Below, piece by piece: positions 1-10,606 of a stretch of DNA of 64,000 nt. The stretch is from an uncultured Lachnospiraceae bacterium (GTDB lineage Bacteria > Bacillota > Clostridia > Lachnospirales > Lachnospiraceae). Within the stretch, counting starts at the first letter, position 1. Each line of letters begins with the position of its first letter. The DNA is taken from positions 1-64,000 of the forward strand of contig CACZJZ010000013.1 in assembly GCA_902781655.1 (NCBI GenBank), in the 5' to 3' direction. Below the pieces are notes generated by a model. The model did not search any database, had not been told where the DNA came from, and saw nothing but the letters and a program-made list of their open reading frames with translations. A program made the position numbers and the translations under genes.

Positions 1-137
1 TCAAAATGCTTATCTTTTGGTCTTTGGTTCGGAATAGTGTAGTGCTGGCGGTCTATCTATTGTTTTCGGTTGCTTGCTTCTTTACCGTACATGAGCATTT
101 GCGCACCGCGCAAACTTATACTGGTCTGTTATAACCT

Positions 138-170
138 GCCAGATTGTGCTACGCACAATCTGGCGTTTTT
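138..170 (+). terminator. Rho-independent terminator reading rightward
   Basis: A perfect 12-bp stem (GCCAGATTGTGC / GCACAATCTGGC) with a 3-nt loop is followed at once by GTTTTT. This is a classic terminator for a + strand transcript entering from the left of the window. The gene it serves is not visible; positions 1-137 hold no ORF that I can support. Confidence 0.8.
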
Positions 171-199
171 AGTGGGAAGCTCCGCTTCCCACTAAAAAC
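165..199. repeat. Perfect hairpin abutting the oppA stop codon
   Basis: The arms are 16 nt each, from GTTTTTAGTGGGAAGC to its exact complement, around a 3-nt loop. It begins in the T-run of the preceding terminator and ends 2 nt before the oppA stop codon. No T-run follows it on the minus strand, so it is not a textbook terminator for oppA. It may cap the oppA 3' end against exonucleases or act as a T-less terminator. Confidence 0.6.
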
Positions 200-201
200 C
201 A

Positions 202-2055
202 TTACTTGCCCAGCTGAGGATCGTCGTTGCCGGAATCAGAAGTAAACATCTCCAGCATGTTGATCGGATCATCGTAGTCAGCGAGCCAGCCCTCACGAGC
301 CACGCCGAAGTTGCCGGACTTACGATCATTCAGGAAGGTCTGCCAGTCCTCAGACTGAATCTCAACCTGGATGCCGATCGCACCGAGATCCTGCTGAATG
401 AGCTGTGCAACAGCCTGATGGCCGCTGCCGTCGTTCGTCAGATAAGTGAAGGAAATCGGCGTATCGGCGGAAAGCATGCCGCTGTCATCGAAGGTGTAGC
501 CAGCATCCTCGAGCAGAGCCTTCGCCTCAGCAAGATTGCCCTCCGGATCCGCAGAGTAATCCTTGTAGTATCCGGTATCCACAGGATAGGTATAGGCATC
601 TGTGTTGGCCTTGAAGGTGCCGCCGTTGCCGTCGCTCATGCCGGTCGGGATGAAGGAGGTGGCGACTTCCTGATCCGTCTGGCCGACCGTATCGACAATA
701 TACTGACGGTCGATCAGGAGAGCCATCGCAAGTCTCATCTCTGCTGCCTGCTTCGGGGTCTTGCCGTCGAACATCGAATCATTCACATTGAACGCGACAT
801 AGTAGGTGCCGAGGTTCGGGATGACATGGAACTCAGGCGTATCCTTGAGGTTCGCAACTTCATCGGTCGGAACGGTATCCGCATAGTCGATGTCGCCGGA
901 CTGGAATGCAGCAAGGATAGCCGTGTCATCTGCAGAGAGCATGAAGTGAAGCTCATCGACAGACACATTTGCTGCGTCATAGAAGTTCGGGTTCTTCACA
1001 TAGACCATGGACTCGTTGTGCTTCCACTCCTTCAGCGTATATGCGCCGTCGGTGACGAAGCCTGCCTCGGTAGCCCAGGAGCCAGGTGTGCCGGCCTTGA
1101 CAGCATCGAACGCAGCCTGCGGAACCGGCATGAATACCGGGAATGCAAGCAGGTTCATCATGTAAGGGCAGGGAGCGGTGAGCTTGAACGTAACCGTGTT
1201 ATCATCCGTGGCCTGTGCGTTGATCTCTGTGGAGCCATCTTCACTGTAGCCGTCGAAGACAGCAAACAGATAAGAATAATCCGAAGCCGTGTTCGGATCA
1301 GCAGCCAGCTTCCAGGAATTGACAATGTCATTCGCGTTGAGTTCCGTACCATCGGACCACTTGAGGCCTGTCTTCATCTTGATGGTGTAGGTCAGTCCGT
1401 CGTCAGAAATCTCCGGATCGCCGTCAGCCAGTGCCGGAACGATCTTGCCGTCCTTGTCGTTGGTGTAAAGACCAACAAAGGAGTTTGCCGCAAGCGCTGC
1501 GCCATCGACCGTGCTGTTCAACTGAGGATCCAGATGATCCGGCTCGGAAGCGAGGTTGATGCTGAAGACATCCGCATTCTTGCCATCCTTCTTCGCATAC
1601 ATGAAATACTTGGTGCCGAATACGGTCGCAAAATCTCCGCTCCACGCCGTGTTCTCCAGATAGAGATCATTGTAATAATACAGCGGAAGAATCGCGCCGG
1701 TCGCCATCAGTATATCCTCTGCCTGATGCATCTTTGCGACACGGTCCGTCAGATCGGTGTCCTGACGAATCTCATCGATCAGATTGTCATACTCCGTCCA
1801 GTCCGGTGCAGCCGGGTGATCGGCAGACGCCTTGAACTCGATGTTGTCCGGCCACGCGCTTGTGCTTTCCGCAGCGGTCGTTGCAGCCGTTGTGGAGCTC
1901 TCTGTAGCAGACTCTGCAGGGGCCGTTGTTGCTGCCGCCGCCTCGCTGCCTGCGGTAGAAGCCGCTGCAGGGGCCTTGGAAGCATCCGCGCATCCGGCAA
2001 GCAGAGTTGCGGCAGTCGCACCAACAAGAACCAGTGCTAATGCTTTCTTTTTCAT
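202..2055 (-). CDS. oppA: Oligopeptide-binding lipoprotein, apparently circularly permuted
   Basis: Extracellular, lipid-anchored solute-binding protein (SBP_bac_5 family) that captures peptides for the OppBCDF importer. A signal peptide ends in the lipobox LAGC (Cys22), followed by an Ala/Thr/Ser-rich linker to about residue 66. Residues 163-617 align in order with the body of the family: LASEPDHLDPQLNS, then GLKWSDGTELNANDIVNSWK, and finally the DYDDPINMLEMFTSDSG region. The protein stops there, although family members normally go on with a YDxLI...AExILM...YYY segment. That missing segment is present instead at residues 86-154 (YDNLIDEI, QAEDILMATGAILPLYYYND, TKYFMYA), before the usual mature N-terminus. 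The start has a perfect AGGAGG site. It is the last gene of the opp operon. The function is secure; the permutation is inferred from family knowledge. Confidence 0.9.
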   Translation of the reverse strand: MKKKALALVLVGATAATLLAGCADASKAPAAASTAGSEAAAATTAPAESATESSTTAATTAAESTSAWPDNIEFKASADHPAAPDWTEYDNLIDEIRQDTDLTDRVAKMHQAEDILMATGAILPLYYYNDLYLENTAWSGDFATVFGTKYFMYAKKDGKNADVFSINLASEPDHLDPQLNSTVDGAALAANSFVGLYTNDKDGKIVPALADGDPEISDDGLTYTIKMKTGLKWSDGTELNANDIVNSWKLAADPNTASDYSYLFAVFDGYSEDGSTEINAQATDDNTVTFKLTAPCPYMMNLLAFPVFMPVPQAAFDAVKAGTPGSWATEAGFVTDGAYTLKEWKHNESMVYVKNPNFYDAANVSVDELHFMLSADDTAILAAFQSGDIDYADTVPTDEVANLKDTPEFHVIPNLGTYYVAFNVNDSMFDGKTPKQAAEMRLAMALLIDRQYIVDTVGQTDQEVATSFIPTGMSDGNGGTFKANTDAYTYPVDTGYYKDYSADPEGNLAEAKALLEDAGYTFDDSGMLSADTPISFTYLTNDGSGHQAVAQLIQQDLGAIGIQVEIQSEDWQTFLNDRKSGNFGVAREGWLADYDDPINMLEMFTSDSGNDDPQLGK

Positions 2056-2111
2056 AACTGTCCTCCTTGTAAAAATAAATATCGAATGAATCCCGCCGAT
2101 CGGGCTTCATC

Positions 2112-2153
2112 CATAATACGGAAATCTATGATTTCCGGTATTACCGATTATGG
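2112..2153 (-). other. Intercistronic hairpin between oppF and oppA
   Basis: Nested inverted repeats lie in the 157-nt gap between the oppF stop and the oppA start: outer arms CCATAAT/ATTATGG and an inner arm GGAAATC/GATTTCC around ATA. There is no T-run. Such hairpins often act as RNA processing or stability sites that let a binding protein be made in excess over its permease; that role is inferred here. Confidence 0.5.
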
Positions 2154-2212
2154 AAATCTTCAATCCGGTATTGCCTTGCAAATGTCAATGACAGTATCGG
2201 CTGAACGCGCTG

Positions 2213-3190
2213 TTACTTGTTCCAGCACGCGACCATGTGACCATTGCCGCGGTCGGTGAGCGGCGGCATCTCCTTGCCGCACTGCTCCGTTGCGTAGCGG
2301 CAGCGCGTGCGGAACGGACATCCGGACGGCATGTGGAGCGGCGACGGAACATCGCCCTCGAGAATGATACGCTTCGACTCCCTCGCCCGCTTCGGGTCCG
2401 GAATCGGCACCGCGGACAGCAGGGAGAGTGTGTACGGATGAATCGGCGAGGCATTCAGCTCGTCCGCATCCGCGATCTCGACGATTTTGCCCAGATACAT
2501 CACGGCGATGCGGTCCGAGATGTGATGCACCACGAGCAGATCGTGGGCGATGAATAGGTACGCAACGCCCAGCTTTTCCTGCAGCTCCTCAAACATATTG
2601 ATGACCTGCGCCTGAATCGACACATCCAGCGCCGATACCGGCTCATCGCAGACGATGAACTTCGGGTTCACCGCGAGCGCCCGGGCAATGCCGATGCGCT
2701 GCCGCTGACCGCCGGAGAACTCATGCGCATACCGTGTGGCATGCTCCGCGTTCAGACCGACCAGTTCCATCAGATGCATGATCTTGTCATGCCTGTCCTG
2801 CTTCGTCGTATAAAGATGATGAATATCGAGCGGCTCTCCGATGATATCCTCAACCGTCATGCGCGGATTCAGCGAGGAATACGGATCCTGGAACACCATC
2901 TGCATCTGCCGGCGCAGCTGATGGATGTTCTTGTCCGTCACCAGCTCGCCGTTAAAATAAAACTCGCCTCCCGTAGGCTCATACAGCCGCAGAAGCGACC
3001 GTCCGACCGTCGTCTTGCCGCAGCCTGACTCTCCAACGAGGCCGAGCGTCTGGCCTGCCCTGATCTGGAAGGAGACGCCGTCCACCGCCTTCAGCGGAAT
3101 CGTCTTGAAAAAGCCGACCTTCACCGGGAAATATTGCTTCAGTCCCCGCACGTCCACGAGGTATTCGCTTTTCTTATTTTCTTCTGCCAT
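2213..3190 (-). CDS. oppF: Oligopeptide ABC transporter ATP-binding protein
   Basis: One of the two cytoplasmic ATPases powering peptide import. Walker A is GESGCGKTT, the signature is [14 protein letters not shown], Walker B is [12 protein letters not shown], and the H-loop is IAHDL. The C-terminal oligopeptide-transporter extension has the usual Cys-rich [15 protein letters not shown] stretch. The length of 325 residues is typical. Its ATG overlaps the oppD stop codon in the form TAATG, which points to translational coupling. The order oppB-C-D-F-A and the paired ATPases make the assignment strong. Confidence 0.93.
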
Positions 3191-4311
3191 TATGCGTTTA
3201 CCTCCCCGGCCTTCTCAAAATTCTTCCCGGCCACGACGCTACCGTCTGCGTTCTCCGCGATTATACCCTCCTGCTCGTATTTTGCCTTCACATTCATCCA
3301 GCAGGAGGCGTAATGTCCATCGTCCATCTGAAGCTCTTCCGGCACCTCAGTCAGGCAGATCTTCATCGCATTGTCGCACCGCGGGCAGAACGCACAGCCC
3401 TTCGGCATATTCAGCATATTGATCGGCGTGCCGCCGATGGGAATCAGCTTCTCGTTCATGTTGTCGAGGTTCGGAATGGAACGGAGAAGCCCCTTGGTAT
3501 ATTCATGGTGGGAGCGGTAGAAAATATCGTCCGCCGTGCCACGCTCGCAGACGCGTCCGCCGTACATGACAATGATCTCATCGCACATCGAGGCGATGAC
3601 GCCGAGATCATGGGTGACCATGATGATGGCCATGCCAAGCTTCTTCTGCAGGTCCTTCATCAAATCAAGGATCTGTGCCTGAATCGTCACGTCGAGCGCG
3701 GTCGTAGGCTCGTCGGCGATCAGAATATCCGGCTCGCAGGCGAGCGCCATGGCGATCATGACACGCTGCCGCATGCCGCCCGAAAGTTCGAACGGATACT
3801 GATGAATCCGGCTCGCAGGCTCGTTGACGCCGACCATCTCAAGGAGTTCGATCGCCCGCTTGTTGGCAGCTGACTTTGTCTTGTACTGCGTGTGAAGCTG
3901 GAGTGCCTCGCGCAGCTGCCAGCCGACCGTGAACACCGGGTTCAGCGCGGTCATCGGATCCTGGAAGATAATGGAACATTTGTTGCCGCGAAAATCCTCC
4001 ATTTCCCTTTTGCTGAACTTCAGGACATCGCGTCCCTTGTACAGAATCTGTCCGTCGACCACCTTGCCGGTGTCCGCCAGAATCTGCATGATCGAATACG
4101 CCGTGACCGACTTGCCGGAACCCGACTCCCCGACCACGCCGAGAATTTTGCCTTTTTTGAGGTTGAAGGAGACGCCGTTGACGGCCTTCACCTCTCCGGA
4201 ATCTGTAAAGAAGGAGGTGTGGAGATTCTTAACCTCGAGAATATTTCCCTCCTCGTTCTCCCTCACTTTCTCCCGGACCTTTTCTTCTGTTGCTGCATCC
4301 ATAGCTGCCAT
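3190..4311 (-). CDS. oppD: Oligopeptide ABC transporter ATP-binding protein
   Basis: Partner ATPase of OppF. Walker A is GESGSGKSV, the signature is [16 protein letters not shown], and Walker B is [12 protein letters not shown]. The C-terminal extension carries a cysteine cluster ([15 protein letters not shown] plus a later ASCW) of the kind that binds an iron-sulfur cluster in some related peptide-transporter ATPases; whether it does here is not shown. The N-terminus has about 20 charged residues ([18 protein letters not shown]) before the domain starts. It begins 35 nt after oppC and overlaps oppF by one base. Confidence 0.93.
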
Positions 4312-4346
4312 TTTTATACCCTTTCCAAAGTTATCAGCTCTCAGCG

Positions 4347-5426
4347 TCAGCCCTTGAGTTTCGGATCAAACGCATCGCGGAGCGCGTCGCCCAGCAGATT
4401 GAACGCAAGGCAGATCAGAATGATCGCGACCGCAGGGAATACCAGCTTCCACGGATAGGACTGCATACCGGAACGCGCGGTATTGGCCAGAGAGCCGAGG
4501 GACGGCATCGGAAGGGCAACACCAAGTCCGATGAAGGACAGATAAGATTCCGTAAAAATCGCCGAAGGGATCTCCTGCGCCGTGCAGATGATGATGACGG
4601 ACAGGCAGTTCGGCAGAATGTGCTTGCGGATGATCCGGCCTCCCGAGGCGCCCATCGATTTGGCCGCGAGCACGTACTCATTCTCCTTGATGGTCAGGAT
4701 CTGGCCGCGCACGAGACGCGCCATGCCGACCCAGTACAGAAGACCGAACACGATCAGCATCGAAACCATGTTCGTGCCGAGCTTACCGACGACGGGAACC
4801 TTCGAGAAATCCAACGTCTCCTTGAATACGACCGAGAGCAGGATGATGATCAGAAGATCCGGCAGCGAGTAGATAATATCGACAATCCGCATCATGACCA
4901 GATCAACCTTGCCGCCGCAGTAGCCCGAAATGGCGCCGTAGATCGTGCCGATGATGAGCACCATCAGGCTGGCGAACACGCCGACCAGGAAGGACACCCG
5001 CATACCGTAGACCACACGGATGAAGTAATCGCGGCACAGCTCGTCCGTTCCCATGATGTGCGGGAAGATTCTCACGTTGTACTTTTCCATGTATGCCTTT
5101 TCCAGTTTGGAGTACTGGAACGGCGCCATGCTGGCAGCGGACTTGTCGCGCACGCCCTCGACAGTGATGACCTCCGAGTAGCTGTACGGAACAAAGATCG
5201 GTGCGACAATCATGATCGCGATCAGGATGATCAGAATCCAGATTGCAAACACTGCCAGCGGATTGCGCCTGAGCCTCTTCATGCCATCGCGGAAAAAGGT
5301 TGTGGACTCCGCCATGACATCCGCCTGCCGCTTTTCTTCATCCGTCGCCCTCTCGAACTTTTCCGGATTCAGCTGCAGGCTCCACATTCTCTTCTTCGGT
5401 GCCGGAATATCGTAATTTTGTGCCAT
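4347..5426 (-). CDS. oppC: Oligopeptide ABC transporter permease OppC
   Basis: Inner-membrane permease subunit of 359 residues. A cytoplasmic N-terminal tail of about 55 residues precedes the first membrane segment (FAIWILIILIAIMIVAPIFV), and five further hydrophobic spans follow. The coupling loop that docks on the ATPases is visible as AAKSMGASGGRIIRKHILPN, the EAA-type motif of the BPD_transp_1 family. It is separated from oppB by 194 nt holding a tandem repeat, an unusually long gap inside this operon. Confidence 0.93.
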   Translation of the reverse strand: MAQNYDIPAPKKRMWSLQLNPEKFERATDEEKRQADVMAESTTFFRDGMKRLRRNPLAVFAIWILIILIAIMIVAPIFVPYSYSEVITVEGVRDKSAASMAPFQYSKLEKAYMEKYNVRIFPHIMGTDELCRDYFIRVVYGMRVSFLVGVFASLMVLIIGTIYGAISGYCGGKVDLVMMRIVDIIYSLPDLLIIILLSVVFKETLDFSKVPVVGKLGTNMVSMLIVFGLLYWVGMARLVRGQILTIKENEYVLAAKSMGASGGRIIRKHILPNCLSVIIICTAQEIPSAIFTESYLSFIGLGVALPMPSLGSLANTARSGMQSYPWKLVFPAVAIILICLAFNLLGDALRDAFDPKLKG

Positions 5427-5485
5427 GTTACCCTCTTGCCGTCCCGCCCACGGTAAATCTCATGCGGGCAGGGCTGTGTTATTGT

Positions 5486-5523
5486 ATTGCTGTATTGTTA
5501 TACTATTGCTGTATTGTTATACT
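5486..5523. repeat. 19-bp perfect tandem duplication in the oppB-oppC gap
   Basis: Two exact consecutive copies of ATTGCTGTATTGTTATACT, preceded by a partial third (GTTATTGT). It lies in the 194-nt non-coding spacer between the oppB stop and the oppC start, an AT-rich island in GC-rich surroundings. No regulatory role can be read from it, but copy-number change here could alter spacing or mRNA folding between the two permease genes. Confidence 0.75.
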
Positions 5524-5620
5524 GCGGCGATGCGTCCGTTATCTGACCTTTCAAATCCCGCCACGTCCAGGTTGTCGGAAATCTCTTACAGGAGACTTTC
5601 GTGGCGTCATGGATCAGGCG

Positions 5621-6532
5621 TCAGCTGAGCTGTATCCGCGGATCGACCAGCTTATACACGATATCGCTGATGAGATTGGCCAGAATCATAATAAACGCCA
5701 GGAAAATGGTGGTTCCCATGATCATCGGGTAGTCTCGCGCTGTGATAGAATCCACAAACTTGGAGCCGAGACCGCCGATGGTGAAGATCTTCTCCACGAC
5801 AAGCGACCCTGTCAAAATCGCGGCGCACAGCGGTCCGACATAGGTGATGACAGGAATCAGCGCATTGCGAAGCGTATGGATGAAGATCACCTTGAGCGGC
5901 TTCACGCCCTTCGCTCTGGCGGTGCGGACATAGTCCTGACCCAGCGCGTCCAGCATGCTGGTCTTGGTGAGACGGGTGATATAGGACATCGGCGGAAGGG
6001 AAAGCGCGATGACCGGCAGCACGTAGTTCTGACTGCTGGAACTCCAGACCGGCACCCAGCCGAGCTGAATGCAGAAGACCAGCAGCAGAAACGACGCTGC
6101 CACAAAGGACGGCATGGCCGTGAACAGGGTGACAAAGAAAATGATGACGTGATCCGGCCACTTGTTTCGGTTTAGCGCGGCGACGCAGCCGAGCACAATT
6201 CCGAATACCAGCGCGACCAAAACCGCGATCAGACCGATTTTGGCGGAAACCGCGAATGACTCGCGGATCGTCTGCGCAATGTTGCGGCCATTCTTAAGAG
6301 AGACGCCGAAATCGCCGTGCAGAATATTCTTCATATAATTGATGAACTGCACATGAACCGGCTTGTCCAGACCATATCTTGCATTAAGCGCCGCGATGAC
6401 TTCCGGAGACTTTGCCTTTTCTCCATTGAACGGTCCGCCCGGGACCGCATTCATCATGAAGAAGGTGATGAAGCAGACCAGAAACATGGTGACGACTGCC
6501 AGCAGGATGCGTTTTACAATGTACTTTGCCAC
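5621..6532 (-). CDS. oppB: Oligopeptide ABC transporter permease OppB
   Basis: First gene of the opp operon and partner of OppC in the membrane channel; 303 residues, typical of the family. The N-terminal span (MAKYIVKRILLAVVTMFLVC) and the family motif AVPGGPF are followed by five more hydrophobic spans and the coupling loop ARAKGVKPLKVIFIHTLRNA. Translation appears to start at GTG, with AGAGGT upstream. The gene is divergent from the DUF1846 gene across a 272-bp spacer. Confidence 0.93.
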   Translation of the reverse strand: MAKYIVKRILLAVVTMFLVCFITFFMMNAVPGGPFNGEKAKSPEVIAALNARYGLDKPVHVQFINYMKNILHGDFGVSLKNGRNIAQTIRESFAVSAKIGLIAVLVALVFGIVLGCVAALNRNKWPDHVIIFFVTLFTAMPSFVAASFLLLVFCIQLGWVPVWSSSSQNYVLPVIALSLPPMSYITRLTKTSMLDALGQDYVRTARAKGVKPLKVIFIHTLRNALIPVITYVGPLCAAILTGSLVVEKIFTIGGLGSKFVDSITARDYPMIMGTTIFLAFIMILANLISDIVYKLVDPRIQLS

Positions 6533-6636
6533 CTTTTCTTACCTCTTTCCAAACTTGCTTTGACCCCACAGGAGGTGCGCCAGAAATCAGACACTTGTCC
6601 GTATCCCGCGGACGCTCTTGTGGTAGTCAACGACTA

Positions 6637-6666
6637 TATATACCATAGATGGCAATCCAATTTCAA
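6637..6666 (-). promoter_or_regulatory. Promoter for the opp operon
   Basis: On the minus strand, TTGAAA (6666-6661) is separated by 18 bp from TATATA (6642-6637), about 105 nt upstream of the oppB start. It is a good sigma-A type match. I saw no convincing CodY box (AATTTTCWGAAAATT-like) over it, although opp operons are frequent CodY targets. Confidence 0.55.
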
Positions 6667-6804
6667 GGACCAGAATGGTATTTCTTACATTCCAGACCGA
6701 TATTTCTTTATAATTCTGCCTCCTCTGTATAAATTACCCGTTTTCCCCCTGAATCCTGTATACTGAAATCGTTCATGATAAGACTTCCAATGGGGGAATG
6801 ATCT

Positions 6805-8298
6805 ATGCAGCAAATCGGTTTTGACAACGAAAAATATCTGAAAACGCAGTCTGAACACATCCGCAACCGGATTGACGCATTCGGCGGCAAGCTCTACATG
6901 GAGTTCGGCGGCAAGCTTTTTGACGACTATCACGCCGCCCGCGTCCTTCCGGGCTTTCAGCCGGACTCCAAAATCCGGATGCTGCGCGAGCTGAAGGATC
7001 AGTGTGAAATTATCATCGCGATTCACGCGGGCGATATCGAGAAGAACAAAATCCGCGGCGATCTCGGCATCACCTATGACATGGATCTGCTCCGTCTCGC
7101 AGATGAATTCCGGGCGAATGGCCTGATGGTCGGAAGCGTCGTCCTCACCCGCTTCGCAGGCCAGCCCTCCGCCGTCGCCTATCAGAAAAAGCTGGAGTCT
7201 CTCGGCATCCGCGTCTACCGCCACTACGCCATTCCGGGCTACCCGTCCGATATCCCCCTCATTGTCTCGGATGAGGGCTTTGGCCGAAACGACTATATCG
7301 AAACCTCTCGTCCTCTCGTTGTTGTGACGGCGCCAGGTCCCGGCAGCGGCAAGATGGCTACCTGCCTTTCTCAGCTCTATCACGAGCATCGCCGCGGAGT
7401 CCGGGCCGGTTATGCAAAATTCGAGACGTTTCCGGTATGGAATCTCCCGCTGAATCACCCGGTCAATCTTGCCTATGAGGCTGCCACCGCGGATCTCGAT
7501 GACATCAACGAGATCGACCCCTTTCATCTGGAGGCCTATGGCACGACAGCAGTCAACTATAACCGGGATATCGCCGTCTTCCCCGTACTGAATGCCATGC
7601 TGGAAAGAATCCAGGGCACCTCTCCCTATCGTTCCCCCACAGATATGGGCGTCAACATGGTAGGGAACTGCATCTGTGACGATTCTGTCTGCCGCTCCGC
7701 CGCGAATCAGGAAATCATCCGGCGCTTCTATGCGGCACTCTGCGAGCGCCGCAAGGGCGATGCCGGAGACGGACCGGTGCTGAAAATCGAGCTTCTGATG
7801 AAAAAGGCCGGCATTTCCGTGCAGGACCGCCCGGTCGCCGAAGCTGCCTGCCGCCGGGCAGCGGAAACCGGCGCGCCTGCCGCAGCCATGCAGATGGAGA
7901 ACGGACAGATTCTGACCGGCAAAACCAGTCCTCTCCTCGGCGCCTCCTCCGCGCTGCTCCTCAATGCGCTCAAATATCTCGCCGGAATCGACGACGCCGT
8001 GGAACTCCTCTCCCCGGAAATCATCGCCCCCATCCAGGAGCTGAAGGTGCGCCGCCTCGGCGGCCACAGCTCGCTGCTGCATCTGAATGAGATTTTGATT
8101 GCCCTCTCCATCGCTGCAGTCACAGATGACAACGCGCGCAGGGCTATGGATCAGCTCGACAACCTTCGCGGCCTCGAGGCGCATTCCTCTGTCATCCTTT
8201 CCCAGATCGACAGCAGTGTATTTCGCAAGCTCGGGGTCAATCTCACCTGCGAGCCGCACTACGAAAGTAAGAAGCTGTATCACCGGACTGGTTTCTGA
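6805..8298 (+). CDS. DUF1846 family protein
   Basis: Soluble protein of 497 residues, the usual length of the DUF1846 family common in Firmicutes, whose biochemical role is not established. It has a glycine-rich nucleotide-binding-like loop, VVVTAPGPGSGKMATCLSQL (about residues 172-191), followed by the conserved stretch FETFPVWNLPLNHPVNLAYE. The start is preceded by a GGGGGA-type site. It is monocistronic, with its own upstream -10 (TATACT near 6760), and converges on the exporter gene, leaving only 61 nt between the stop codons. The family call is firm; any function would be a guess. Confidence 0.88.
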   Translation: MQQIGFDNEKYLKTQSEHIRNRIDAFGGKLYMEFGGKLFDDYHAARVLPGFQPDSKIRMLRELKDQCEIIIAIHAGDIEKNKIRGDLGITYDMDLLRLADEFRANGLMVGSVVLTRFAGQPSAVAYQKKLESLGIRVYRHYAIPGYPSDIPLIVSDEGFGRNDYIETSRPLVVVTAPGPGSGKMATCLSQLYHEHRRGVRAGYAKFETFPVWNLPLNHPVNLAYEAATADLDDINEIDPFHLEAYGTTAVNYNRDIAVFPVLNAMLERIQGTSPYRSPTDMGVNMVGNCICDDSVCRSAANQEIIRRFYAALCERRKGDAGDGPVLKIELLMKKAGISVQDRPVAEAACRRAAETGAPAAAMQMENGQILTGKTSPLLGASSALLLNALKYLAGIDDAVELLSPEIIAPIQELKVRRLGGHSSLLHLNEILIALSIAAVTDDNARRAMDQLDNLRGLEAHSSVILSQIDSSVFRKLGVNLTCEPHYESKKLYHRTGF

Positions 8299-8359
8299 GT
8301 GTCTGCGATGCCTCGGCAGCCATGGAATATATCTTCCCCGATGCTTGCAGGCTGGTCTA

Positions 8360-10606
8360 CTAATAAAGGTCCTGCACATCCGTAATCCTGCCGTCTGCCA
8401 CCGCGAAGCTCCATACCGCGTGCCCAGGCAGACGGTGCTCCATGAGATAATATCGTCCGTCCGTGCGCGTCATGTAATAGGGCGTGCCGCCTCCGATAAA
8501 ATAAGTAGAATAAATATCCCGCACTCCCGCGGACAGCGCCGTCCCGGGTTCCGCCGCAAGAGACTCAAGAAACGGCGTCCAGAGCATGACCGCCGCGCTC
8601 TGATCGCCTGTAAGATCCGTCGACACCGTCACAAAATATCCATTGCGGCAGGCGGTGCCTTCTTCTATCTTCCCGAACACCTCCTGCGTGTGCGGTTCTC
8701 CCTCCGCCGGAAGCTCTTCATCCGAATCGATCACAGGAAGAATCTGCACCATCCCCGCATAGGCATCGCAGACCGGGTACGCCTCCTGCACCGACAGATC
8801 AGACAGCCTGCACAGCAGAATTCGTGCCTGTCCGCCGTCCGCGCTCGTCCCGGATACAAACAGGATCCGATCTCCGAAGATTGTAAAGGAACGCACATAC
8901 GTGTTTGACAGTGCCGGACAGGTTCTTACCTCCGTGAGATAGAGCGTCGGATCATCCTTCGGATGCCGGAAACAGTATAATTCCCCGTTCTCCGAGCTCC
9001 ATACATAGAACGTGTCTGTGTCCGGATCATAGACGCTGAAGTGCGGCCTTCTGCCAATATTGCGAAAGACCTGTGTCGTCGTGAACACACCGCCGACCTT
9101 CGTATAAACCAGCACCCGGTTGTTCTCCGTGTCATCCGCCAGCAGAACAAGTCCGTCCCCGGCCACCGTATGCGGCCTTGAGACACCGTTGCGGGGCAGA
9201 ACGCTCCAGTCAGAGATGGCATCGGTCAGCGCCTCCTCATCCCCCGCGTGATACAGAATCCGATCATGATAACAGTCCACCAGAAACCAGGTGTCCCCGA
9301 TACGTTTCAAAATGGTCGGCACAGACAAAGTCCCATCCTTGTTTGCTGTGTCTCCGACACCGCCCTGCCAGCTCTCTCCCTTCGAGATCCACGCGTCCTG
9401 CTCCGGGTCAAACGGCGCGGCAGCAGCCTGCCCGCTCTCCTCCGTCAGGCTATCCTTCGTCAGCCCTTCCGATGACCACTCTGCAGCTCCCACAGCCGTC
9501 GTTCCAGGAACCGTTCCTGGTTCTTCCCCTGCGATGCGGCTGACTGACAGGGTGTCCCCAGTCGCTGCTATGCCCGCCCTCTCGCTGCCACATCCTCCGA
9601 GAGTCATGGACAGCAAAACTCCGCCCACGCTGAACAGGGCAGCCGTCAGAACAGCGTTTCCTCCGCCGCGGATCTGTACCGCCGCCTTCTTCCCCGACAA
9701 AATGATCCCGGCACTCACCAGCACAAGCGCGGCAAAGACACGGACGCTGAACGCCTCCCTGCCCTCTCCCAGAAACAGCGCTGAGAGCAGCACACCCAGC
9801 ACCGGATTCATAAAACCCAGGATCGTAATGCGGCTCACCTCATTGTATTTCAGCAGAATTCCCCAGAGCGTGTAAGCGCCCGCCGAAATAAAACCCATAT
9901 ACAGAAGAAGCAGCCATGCCCTTCCACCGGTCGGCTGGAGACGCCCGCCCAGAGCTAGCCCCATCAGAGTCAAAACCATACCACCAGAAAGGAACTGCCA
10001 GCCGCTGAGCGTGACCGGATTCTCCCTCGCCGAAAAAAGCTTGATACAGCAGCCGGCGACAGCACCTGTGAGCGCCGCAATCACCATACATCCCTCGCCG
10101 GAGAAACTGATTCCTCCGCCGCCTGTACCGCCAGCCGTGACAATCAGCAGCACGCCCAGAAACCCGGCGATGCTTCCAACGACCCTGGCAGCCGTTAGCT
10201 TCTCAAACCGGAACACAAACGCCGCGAGGAACAGAGAGAAGAACGTTCCGGCCGCATTGATCACCGAACCGCGAACACCGCTCGTGTGCGCAAGTCCGGT
10301 GTAAAAGAAAATGTACTGCAGAATCGTCTGAAACAGCATCAGAACCAGAACGTATCGCCAGCTCTCCCGTGTCGGGCGCAGGAAACGGCGCTCCAGCATA
10401 CTGCCGATGGCGATCACCATTCCTCCTGCGATCATGAAACGCACCCCTGCGAAGACAAAACGGGAAGCAAGATCCTCCGTTCCGATCAAGAACAGCGCAT
10501 ACCCGATTTTGATCGACGGCGAGGCCGATCCCCATAGAAAACAACAGAAAAACGCAATCAAAAAGACAGCTGCCGGATTCGTCCAGAACTTCACCCTGTT
10601 TCGCAT
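8360..10606 (-). CDS. EamA/DMT exporter fused to a lipoprotein-like extracytoplasmic domain
   Basis: Residues 1-305 form a drug/metabolite transporter with two EamA repeats and about ten membrane spans (for example FLIAFFCCFLWGSASPSIKI and the Pro-bearing ILGFMNPVLGVLLSALFLGE), the normal full length of such an exporter. The frame continues through a hydrophobic stretch ending in MTLGGC (Cys339), which looks like a lipoprotein signal with lipobox. A Ser/Thr/Gly/Ala-rich linker and about 350 soluble residues follow, with repeated W/Y-rich strands (DTWFLVDCYHDRILYH, TFYVWSSENGELYCF) suggesting a beta-propeller. A GGAGGA stretch (9659-9664) lies 9 nt before an in-frame CTG (codon 320), as if the second part once had its own start. 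Substrate unknown. A sequencing or assembly error joining two genes cannot be excluded. Confidence 0.75.
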   Translation of the reverse strand: MRNRVKFWTNPAAVFLIAFFCCFLWGSASPSIKIGYALFLIGTEDLASRFVFAGVRFMIAGGMVIAIGSMLERRFLRPTRESWRYVLVLMLFQTILQYIFFYTGLAHTSGVRGSVINAAGTFFSLFLAAFVFRFEKLTAARVVGSIAGFLGVLLIVTAGGTGGGGISFSGEGCMVIAALTGAVAGCCIKLFSARENPVTLSGWQFLSGGMVLTLMGLALGGRLQPTGGRAWLLLLYMGFISAGAYTLWGILLKYNEVSRITILGFMNPVLGVLLSALFLGEGREAFSVRVFAALVLVSAGIILSGKKAAVQIRGGGNAVLTAALFSVGGVLLSMTLGGCGSERAGIAATGDTLSVSRIAGEEPGTVPGTTAVGAAEWSSEGLTKDSLTEESGQAAAAPFDPEQDAWISKGESWQGGVGDTANKDGTLSVPTILKRIGDTWFLVDCYHDRILYHAGDEEALTDAISDWSVLPRNGVSRPHTVAGDGLVLLADDTENNRVLVYTKVGGVFTTTQVFRNIGRRPHFSVYDPDTDTFYVWSSENGELYCFRHPKDDPTLYLTEVRTCPALSNTYVRSFTIFGDRILFVSGTSADGGQARILLCRLSDLSVQEAYPVCDAYAGMVQILPVIDSDEELPAEGEPHTQEVFGKIEEGTACRNGYFVTVSTDLTGDQSAAVMLWTPFLESLAAEPGTALSAGVRDIYSTYFIGGGTPYYMTRTDGRYYLMEHRLPGHAVWSFAVADGRITDVQDLY

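Follow-up and report, generated by a model that had tools for sequence, protein, structure and literature searches.

The window analysed here, a 64,000-nucleotide stretch from an uncultured Lachnospiraceae bacterium, has close to its first base the oppA gene of an oppBCDFA operon, and its predicted product raises a simple question: is this a natural circular permutant of the oligopeptide-binding protein OppA, and if so, how did the order of its segments come about? The protein is matched by Pfam SBP_bac_5 (PF00496) over residues 204-610, with 300.2 bits against a cut-off of 32.4; this is its sole Pfam match at E 0.001, and it does not fall within the Type I sugar-binding family. The signal peptide with its lipobox cysteine has the sequence pattern of a lipoprotein, the oppB, oppC, oppD and oppF genes lie upstream on the same strand and provide the genetic link expected of an OppA, and GWLADYDDP at residues 589-597 (W590, D593) lines up with the GW..D stretch seen in solved OppAs, the Trp/Asp motif of peptide receptors. 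A sequence-only reading of this stretch had proposed the permutation, and had described the lipid anchor and operon as intact and the stop codon as followed by a hairpin; the lipobox LLAGC and oppBCDF are indeed present, and two strong stem-loops were found 3' of the stop codon, with no obvious U-run after them (Table 1). An Rfam scan of window positions 1-8500 gave no match at gathering scores. Farther into the window (8360-10606, minus strand) is a 748-aa open reading frame that by eye resembles a multi-span transporter in its first half and a lipoprotein-type domain in its second.

Table 1. The permuted oppA gene of the window, its parts and its operon partners.
Feature	Position	Strand	Size or basis
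oppA, circularly permuted SBP_bac_5 lipoprotein	202..2055	(-)	617 aa + stop
Lipoprotein signal peptide, residues 1-22; lipobox LLAGC at residues 18-22 (Cys22)	1990..2055	(-)	sequence pattern
Ala/Ser/Thr/Glu-rich tether linker, residues 23-78	1822..1989	(-)	sequence
C-terminal segment of the canonical order, here in front, residues 79-156 (78 residues)	1588..1821	(-)	alignment + profiles
Junction KKDGKNAD, residues 155-162	1570..1593	(-)	sequence
Remaining SBP_bac_5 domain, residues 160-617, end ..NDDPQLGK	205..1578	(-)	alignment + profiles
Two consecutive stem-loops 3' of the oppA stop codon	138..199	(-)	-49.7 kcal/mol, z -9.4
oppF-like ATPase (ABC_tran, oligo_HPY)	2213..3190	(-)	Pfam
oppD-like ATPase (ABC_tran, oligo_HPY)	3190..4311	(-)	Pfam
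oppC-like permease (BPD_transp_1, OppC_N)	4347..5426	(-)	Pfam
oppB-like permease (BPD_transp_1)	5621..6532	(-)	Pfam

Nearly the whole canonical OppA chain is found once in the window protein, with its two segments in swapped order. Using phmmer, query residues 154-612 align to residues 12-449 of the Bacillus subtilis OppA chain 8are, and query residues 87-152 to residues 455-520 of its 525. The C-terminal segment is weak by itself against single PDB chains (i-E 0.19 for 8are and 13 for the next two), and scores 103 bits (i-E 2e-32) against a profile of close canonical relatives and 63 bits (i-E 3e-20) against a profile of 11 distant canonical rows. On the profile of canonical relatives, residues 79-156 occupy positions 454-531 of 532; the sequence-only reading had thus placed the missing segment correctly ahead of the N-terminus, but its limits of 86-154 have to be moved to about 79-156. 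The native protein matches the 11-row distant profile in separate pieces, the best with 445 bits, whereas the protein rotated in silico, with the segment rejoined to the C-terminus as that reading had suggested, matches the canonical profile as one continuous domain of 547 bits; the controls gave 471 bits with the tail removed and a mean of 472±2 (maximum 478) with 20 shuffled tails. The swapped alignment and the gain on rotation bear out the proposal and, as judged by comparison with its homologues, the window OppA is a circular permutant that contains both segments once, in exchanged order.

In sequence terms, the new ends of the chain fall in the loop that runs from ..GNNDPQLG(K/R) to (S)APDW.., a short linker bridges the old C- and N-termini, and the new N-terminus follows a lipoprotein signal and linker. 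The junction KKDGKNAD connects the old C-terminus (..KYFMYA) to the old N-terminus (..NLASEPDHLDP). Both features are well conserved among permuted relatives: of 87 members, 81 fit the KYF-to-SEP pattern, with a spacing of 14-18 aa, and in 77 the chain stops a single residue past Q(L/F/Y)G, five of the other ten having no normal end. The linker from the cysteine to the fold has a median length of 48.5 residues in permuted proteins (n=72) and 31 in canonical ones (n=40), kinship being ignored, and the longer linker fits a tether that has to reach farther. The tail itself, compared in 87 permuted and 28 canonical rows whose pairs are not independent, has a mean identity 2-4 points lower in permuted than in canonical pairs at 50-65% body identity, and 4-8 points higher at body identities of at least 65%; its consensus agrees between the two orders at 54 of 74 residues, and relaxation in the permuted proteins is thus not clearly indicated.

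An ordinary signal peptide without a lipobox, as scored by a simple pattern, was seen in 13 distinct permuted proteins (L069, L071, L073, L081, L082, L084, L087, L091, L097, L098, L131, L134 and L135) and in none of 40 canonical rows. The script count of 15 among 87 rows includes one duplicate and one protein cut at the end of its locus; the script also misreads L076, a gene truncated at its 5' end by the locus boundary, and duplicates such as L069/L129, L113/L140 and L072/L133 are present among its 128 rows.

With the tail and body of the window protein as probes, 140 loci were classified, which on recounting correspond to 124 distinct ones: 85 with the tail first, 37 with the tail last, and two with no detected tail, so that the order is shared by relatives, as had been put forward for checking. 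The first batch of 112 loci comprised 73, 38 and one, respectively, and the second batch of 28 comprised 24 tail first and four tail last. One of these 24 (L149, the same gene as L202, from the single-contig genome G330) is a permuted oppA interrupted by an in-frame stop; the second frame, after the stop, was counted as having no tail in the recount. Among the permuted members are those of Blautia caecimuris DSM 29492 and Lachnospiraceae bacterium NK3A20.

Because oppA lies only about 200 bases from the contig end (the window being contig C13 of its assembly, G000, from base 1), an assembly artefact needed to be ruled out. Another genome has the same order at 94-96% identity (L017, identical in sequence to L046), as do many less similar assemblies, the single-contig genome G245 among them, and the probability that the order was created during assembly is negligible; a further match at 97-100% (L047) may be from the same species or genome. 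Duplication of the tail, with the N-terminal copy as an extra domain and the canonical C-terminal copy lost or located elsewhere, would be a natural intermediate of the duplication route proposed below. The segment is present once in 138 of the 140 loci, is lacking in two, and is present twice in none, in keeping with the earlier preference for permutation over duplication; nor was any relic of it found downstream of 87 permuted genes, over up to 900 bases (best E 0.95), or 5' of 41 canonical genes. We therefore consider a duplicated tail very improbable, and favour permutation. Tandem double-length intermediates were also sought in the fetched loci, where eight of 21 frames of at least 720 aa match binding-protein profiles, each with a single binding domain. 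In the window's genus, L241, L242 and L254 encode long SBP_bac_5 proteins with extensions, and that of L241 has a low-complexity tandem repeat within the binding domain.

The position of oppA is also shared between the two orders. It is the last gene of oppBCDFA, with all four partners present, at 43 permuted and 22 canonical loci, and most other rows of this tally have a partial BCDFA order because the fetched locus is short. In G245 (L201) the permuted oppA is the first gene, giving A-B-C-D-F rather than B-C-D-F-A. Two permuted genes on 11.8-kb loci (L060 and L066) lack BCDF neighbours and are second copies in genomes that also hold an operon copy (L059 and L121). A close member is present in all 36 genomes searched with a canonical query, and the two orders occur together in none of them; G109 has two canonical copies, and several genomes have distant canonical paralogues at 33-37% identity. 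Among eight genomes in the genus of G410, G410 itself is permuted, G466 is canonical, and six have no match; similar searches covered two genomes in the genus of G102, with one match, and the single genome in the genus of G197.

Phylogenetic analysis shows that the window-type opening arose or was undone several times within one syntenic operon. A tree of the body, using 65 chosen rows of the 102 kept, has four changes of order, all forced by well supported branches (4-6 in bootstraps), and placing the permuted rows in a single clade is rejected (p=1.5e-8, or p=9e-4 with L095 excluded from that clade); in a quick 101-row tree there are six changes, three of them forced. For the tail alone, a single clade was not rejected with 90 rows and a simpler model (p=0.346), whereas a second test with added rows (93 rows, 77 columns), a mixture model and a longer search gave ten changes, three of them forced, and p=0.020; because of the first result the tail evidence for recurrence is moderate. 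The partner genes B, C, D and F of 67 operons, in a quick tree without a mixture model, require five forced changes and reject a single clade with p=4e-109. With 97 operons, six of 103 having been dropped (partial rows, and L197, in which the partner genes are not of the same operon), the partner tree has seven changes, six of them forced, and the OppA tree of the same operons has five, four of them forced. The partner genes have no evident stake in the order of oppA. As the permuted members do not form one clade by body, tail or partner genes, they do not define a single sub-family, as the sequence-only reading had suggested they might. The outgroup operons (L220, L222 and L225) are canonical, and rooting on them makes the first change one from canonical to permuted. 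If only gains are allowed there are 8-10 origins, against 5-7 changes in a two-way model, which the likelihood favours only mildly (2dlnL 5.4 and 3.1).

Otherwise-rotated SBP_bac_5 proteins surfaced while distant matches were being checked and, as read from their profile matches, three more opening points occur in related proteins of the same class. Seven genes have an opening near profile position 268/279 (two in L226, and L259, L260, L318, L322 and L323), four near position 350/365 (L317, L319, L320 and L321), and one in domain II (L227); L318 and L320 are from single-contig genomes. A lipobox was recognised by eye in the 11 of these genes with a 5' end present, L260 being cut at a contig end. 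In L226 (G049:C13) two otherwise-permuted genes flank B, C, D and F genes. Another two families of the class (L324 and L325) also have the window-type opening. Searching 391 class-level genomes with a profile of the permuted junction gave 65 places in 63 genomes that passed 1e-45; ten of these, the window included, cross the junction and all ten have the inverted order, although the profile favours permuted genes, so that 10 of 65 should not be read as a frequency. When 23 genomes were searched with a canonical profile and inspected by eye, the inverted order was evident in the window gene and in two genes of G049; a gene of G010 was matched in one part only, and its inverted order was recognised by other searches.

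An alternative history is that a single ancient permutation was followed by homologous recombination exchanging bodies and tails between the orders, so that order only looks polyphyletic. The precise chain end shared by most permuted members would follow naturally, as would the first tail-only test, and the permuted L023 has the expected mosaic character, with a body nearest to canonical L113 (80%) and a tail nearest to permuted rows (77%). However, exchange between orders is at odds with their never occurring together in the 36 genomes, and other cases show no such mosaic: permuted L095 lies among canonical rows by body, tail and partner genes, and permuted L143 is closest to canonical L116 in both body (77%) and tail (78%), with its operon (L188) among canonical operons by partner genes. 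Moreover, the further opening points cannot stem from sequence exchange, and we consider a single origin unlikely. A different kind of objection is that the displaced segment packs onto a neighbouring molecule rather than its own body, forming a domain-swapped dimer or chain, and AliC, a relative of OppA, reportedly forms such a dimer (PMC11192437); the short, near-constant junction is better suited to a direct joining of neighbouring ends within one molecule, and such swapping seems quite improbable, more so than the single origin. Recurrent opening of a chain that folds on itself is therefore the reading that we prefer.

The window OppA is likely to have a complete fold and to be a working peptide receptor for OppBCDF, because the operon is conserved and both segments are still conserved. 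In Salmonella OppA the Trp/Asp motif holds the peptide N-terminus (Asp419), residues 1-44 and 487-517 belong to domain I, and residues 270-486 to domain III (PMC6305025), which is lobe 2 in the description of AliD (PMC11192437). On these limits the two old ends map to domain I and the new N-terminus to domain III, and the lipid tether would be predicted to move from lobe 1 to lobe 2. A plausible route is a partial tandem duplication behind one signal peptide with subsequent loss of the redundant ends, although, as neither a duplicated intermediate nor a relic was found, this route is a conjecture. Overall, we think it very probable that this is a genuine natural OppA permutant and likely a working receptor, with a presumed shift of the tether, a recurrent opening and a presumed origin by duplication. 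A more speculative view, possible but in our judgement somewhat doubtful, is that in this class of bacteria the mature SBP_bac_5 domain behaves as a closed ring whose point of opening, with at least four places in use, evolves freely, flipping repeatedly among orthologues of one operon position with true returns included, and that selection on whether the tether enters lobe 1 or lobe 2 could be the driving force.

Discussions of circular permutation mostly concern proteins that are distantly related. In the present case, orthologues of the two orders are up to 80% identical over the body (L023/L113) and share the same operon, several times over, and relatives have other opening points; with such similar orthologues of both orders in one operon, the route of permutation, its reversibility and its adaptive value become directly testable. 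The pairs also offer natural templates for the engineering of biosensors and tethers. Since Pfam annotation is blind to order and reports an ordinary SBP_bac_5 protein, the permutation is hidden from it.

Within the literature searched, with subscription papers and preprints outside its scope, no permuted OppA was found, and the circular permutation treated in the portions of PMC2265533 and PMC3688454 considered concerns other proteins. As far as this search reaches, a permuted OppA, the alternation of orders among orthologues, and several opening points within one family are new. Natural circular permutation is known in swaposin, DNA methyltransferases and transhydrogenases, and has been modelled by duplication or by fission and fusion, with transhydrogenase arrangements fused independently (PMC3320104); compared with what that source describes, orthologues at a single operon position here switch between the two orders, and no intermediate came to light. 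The nearest parallel in kind is Tp0684 (MglB-2) of Treponema pallidum, a circularly permuted sugar-binding lipoprotein and, like the window OppA, a natural permuted substrate-binding lipoprotein of an ABC importer, whose topology is common to its relatives and for which tethering is proposed as a possible reason (PMC4990184). It differs in having a Type I sugar-binding fold of another family, and the part of that report considered here describes neither mixed orders among orthologues nor several opening points. Canonical orthologues from Pseudobutyrivibrio, Butyrivibrio fibrisolvens 16/4, Roseburia hominis An869 and Sharpea porci (L103, L105, L108-L109, L111-L112, L114-L115 and L125) are 52-60% identical to the window protein in the best segment and share the BCDFA operon and position wherever the locus is long enough, with the C-terminal segment at the end. 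Canonical OppAs in general, including those of Salmonella and B. subtilis (8are), are of the same SBP_bac_5 family (PF00496) over nearly the whole chain and have operon partners of the same kind, whereas the window OppA has the C-terminal 78 or so residues first, ends in ..PQLGK, and carries its anchor at another loop.
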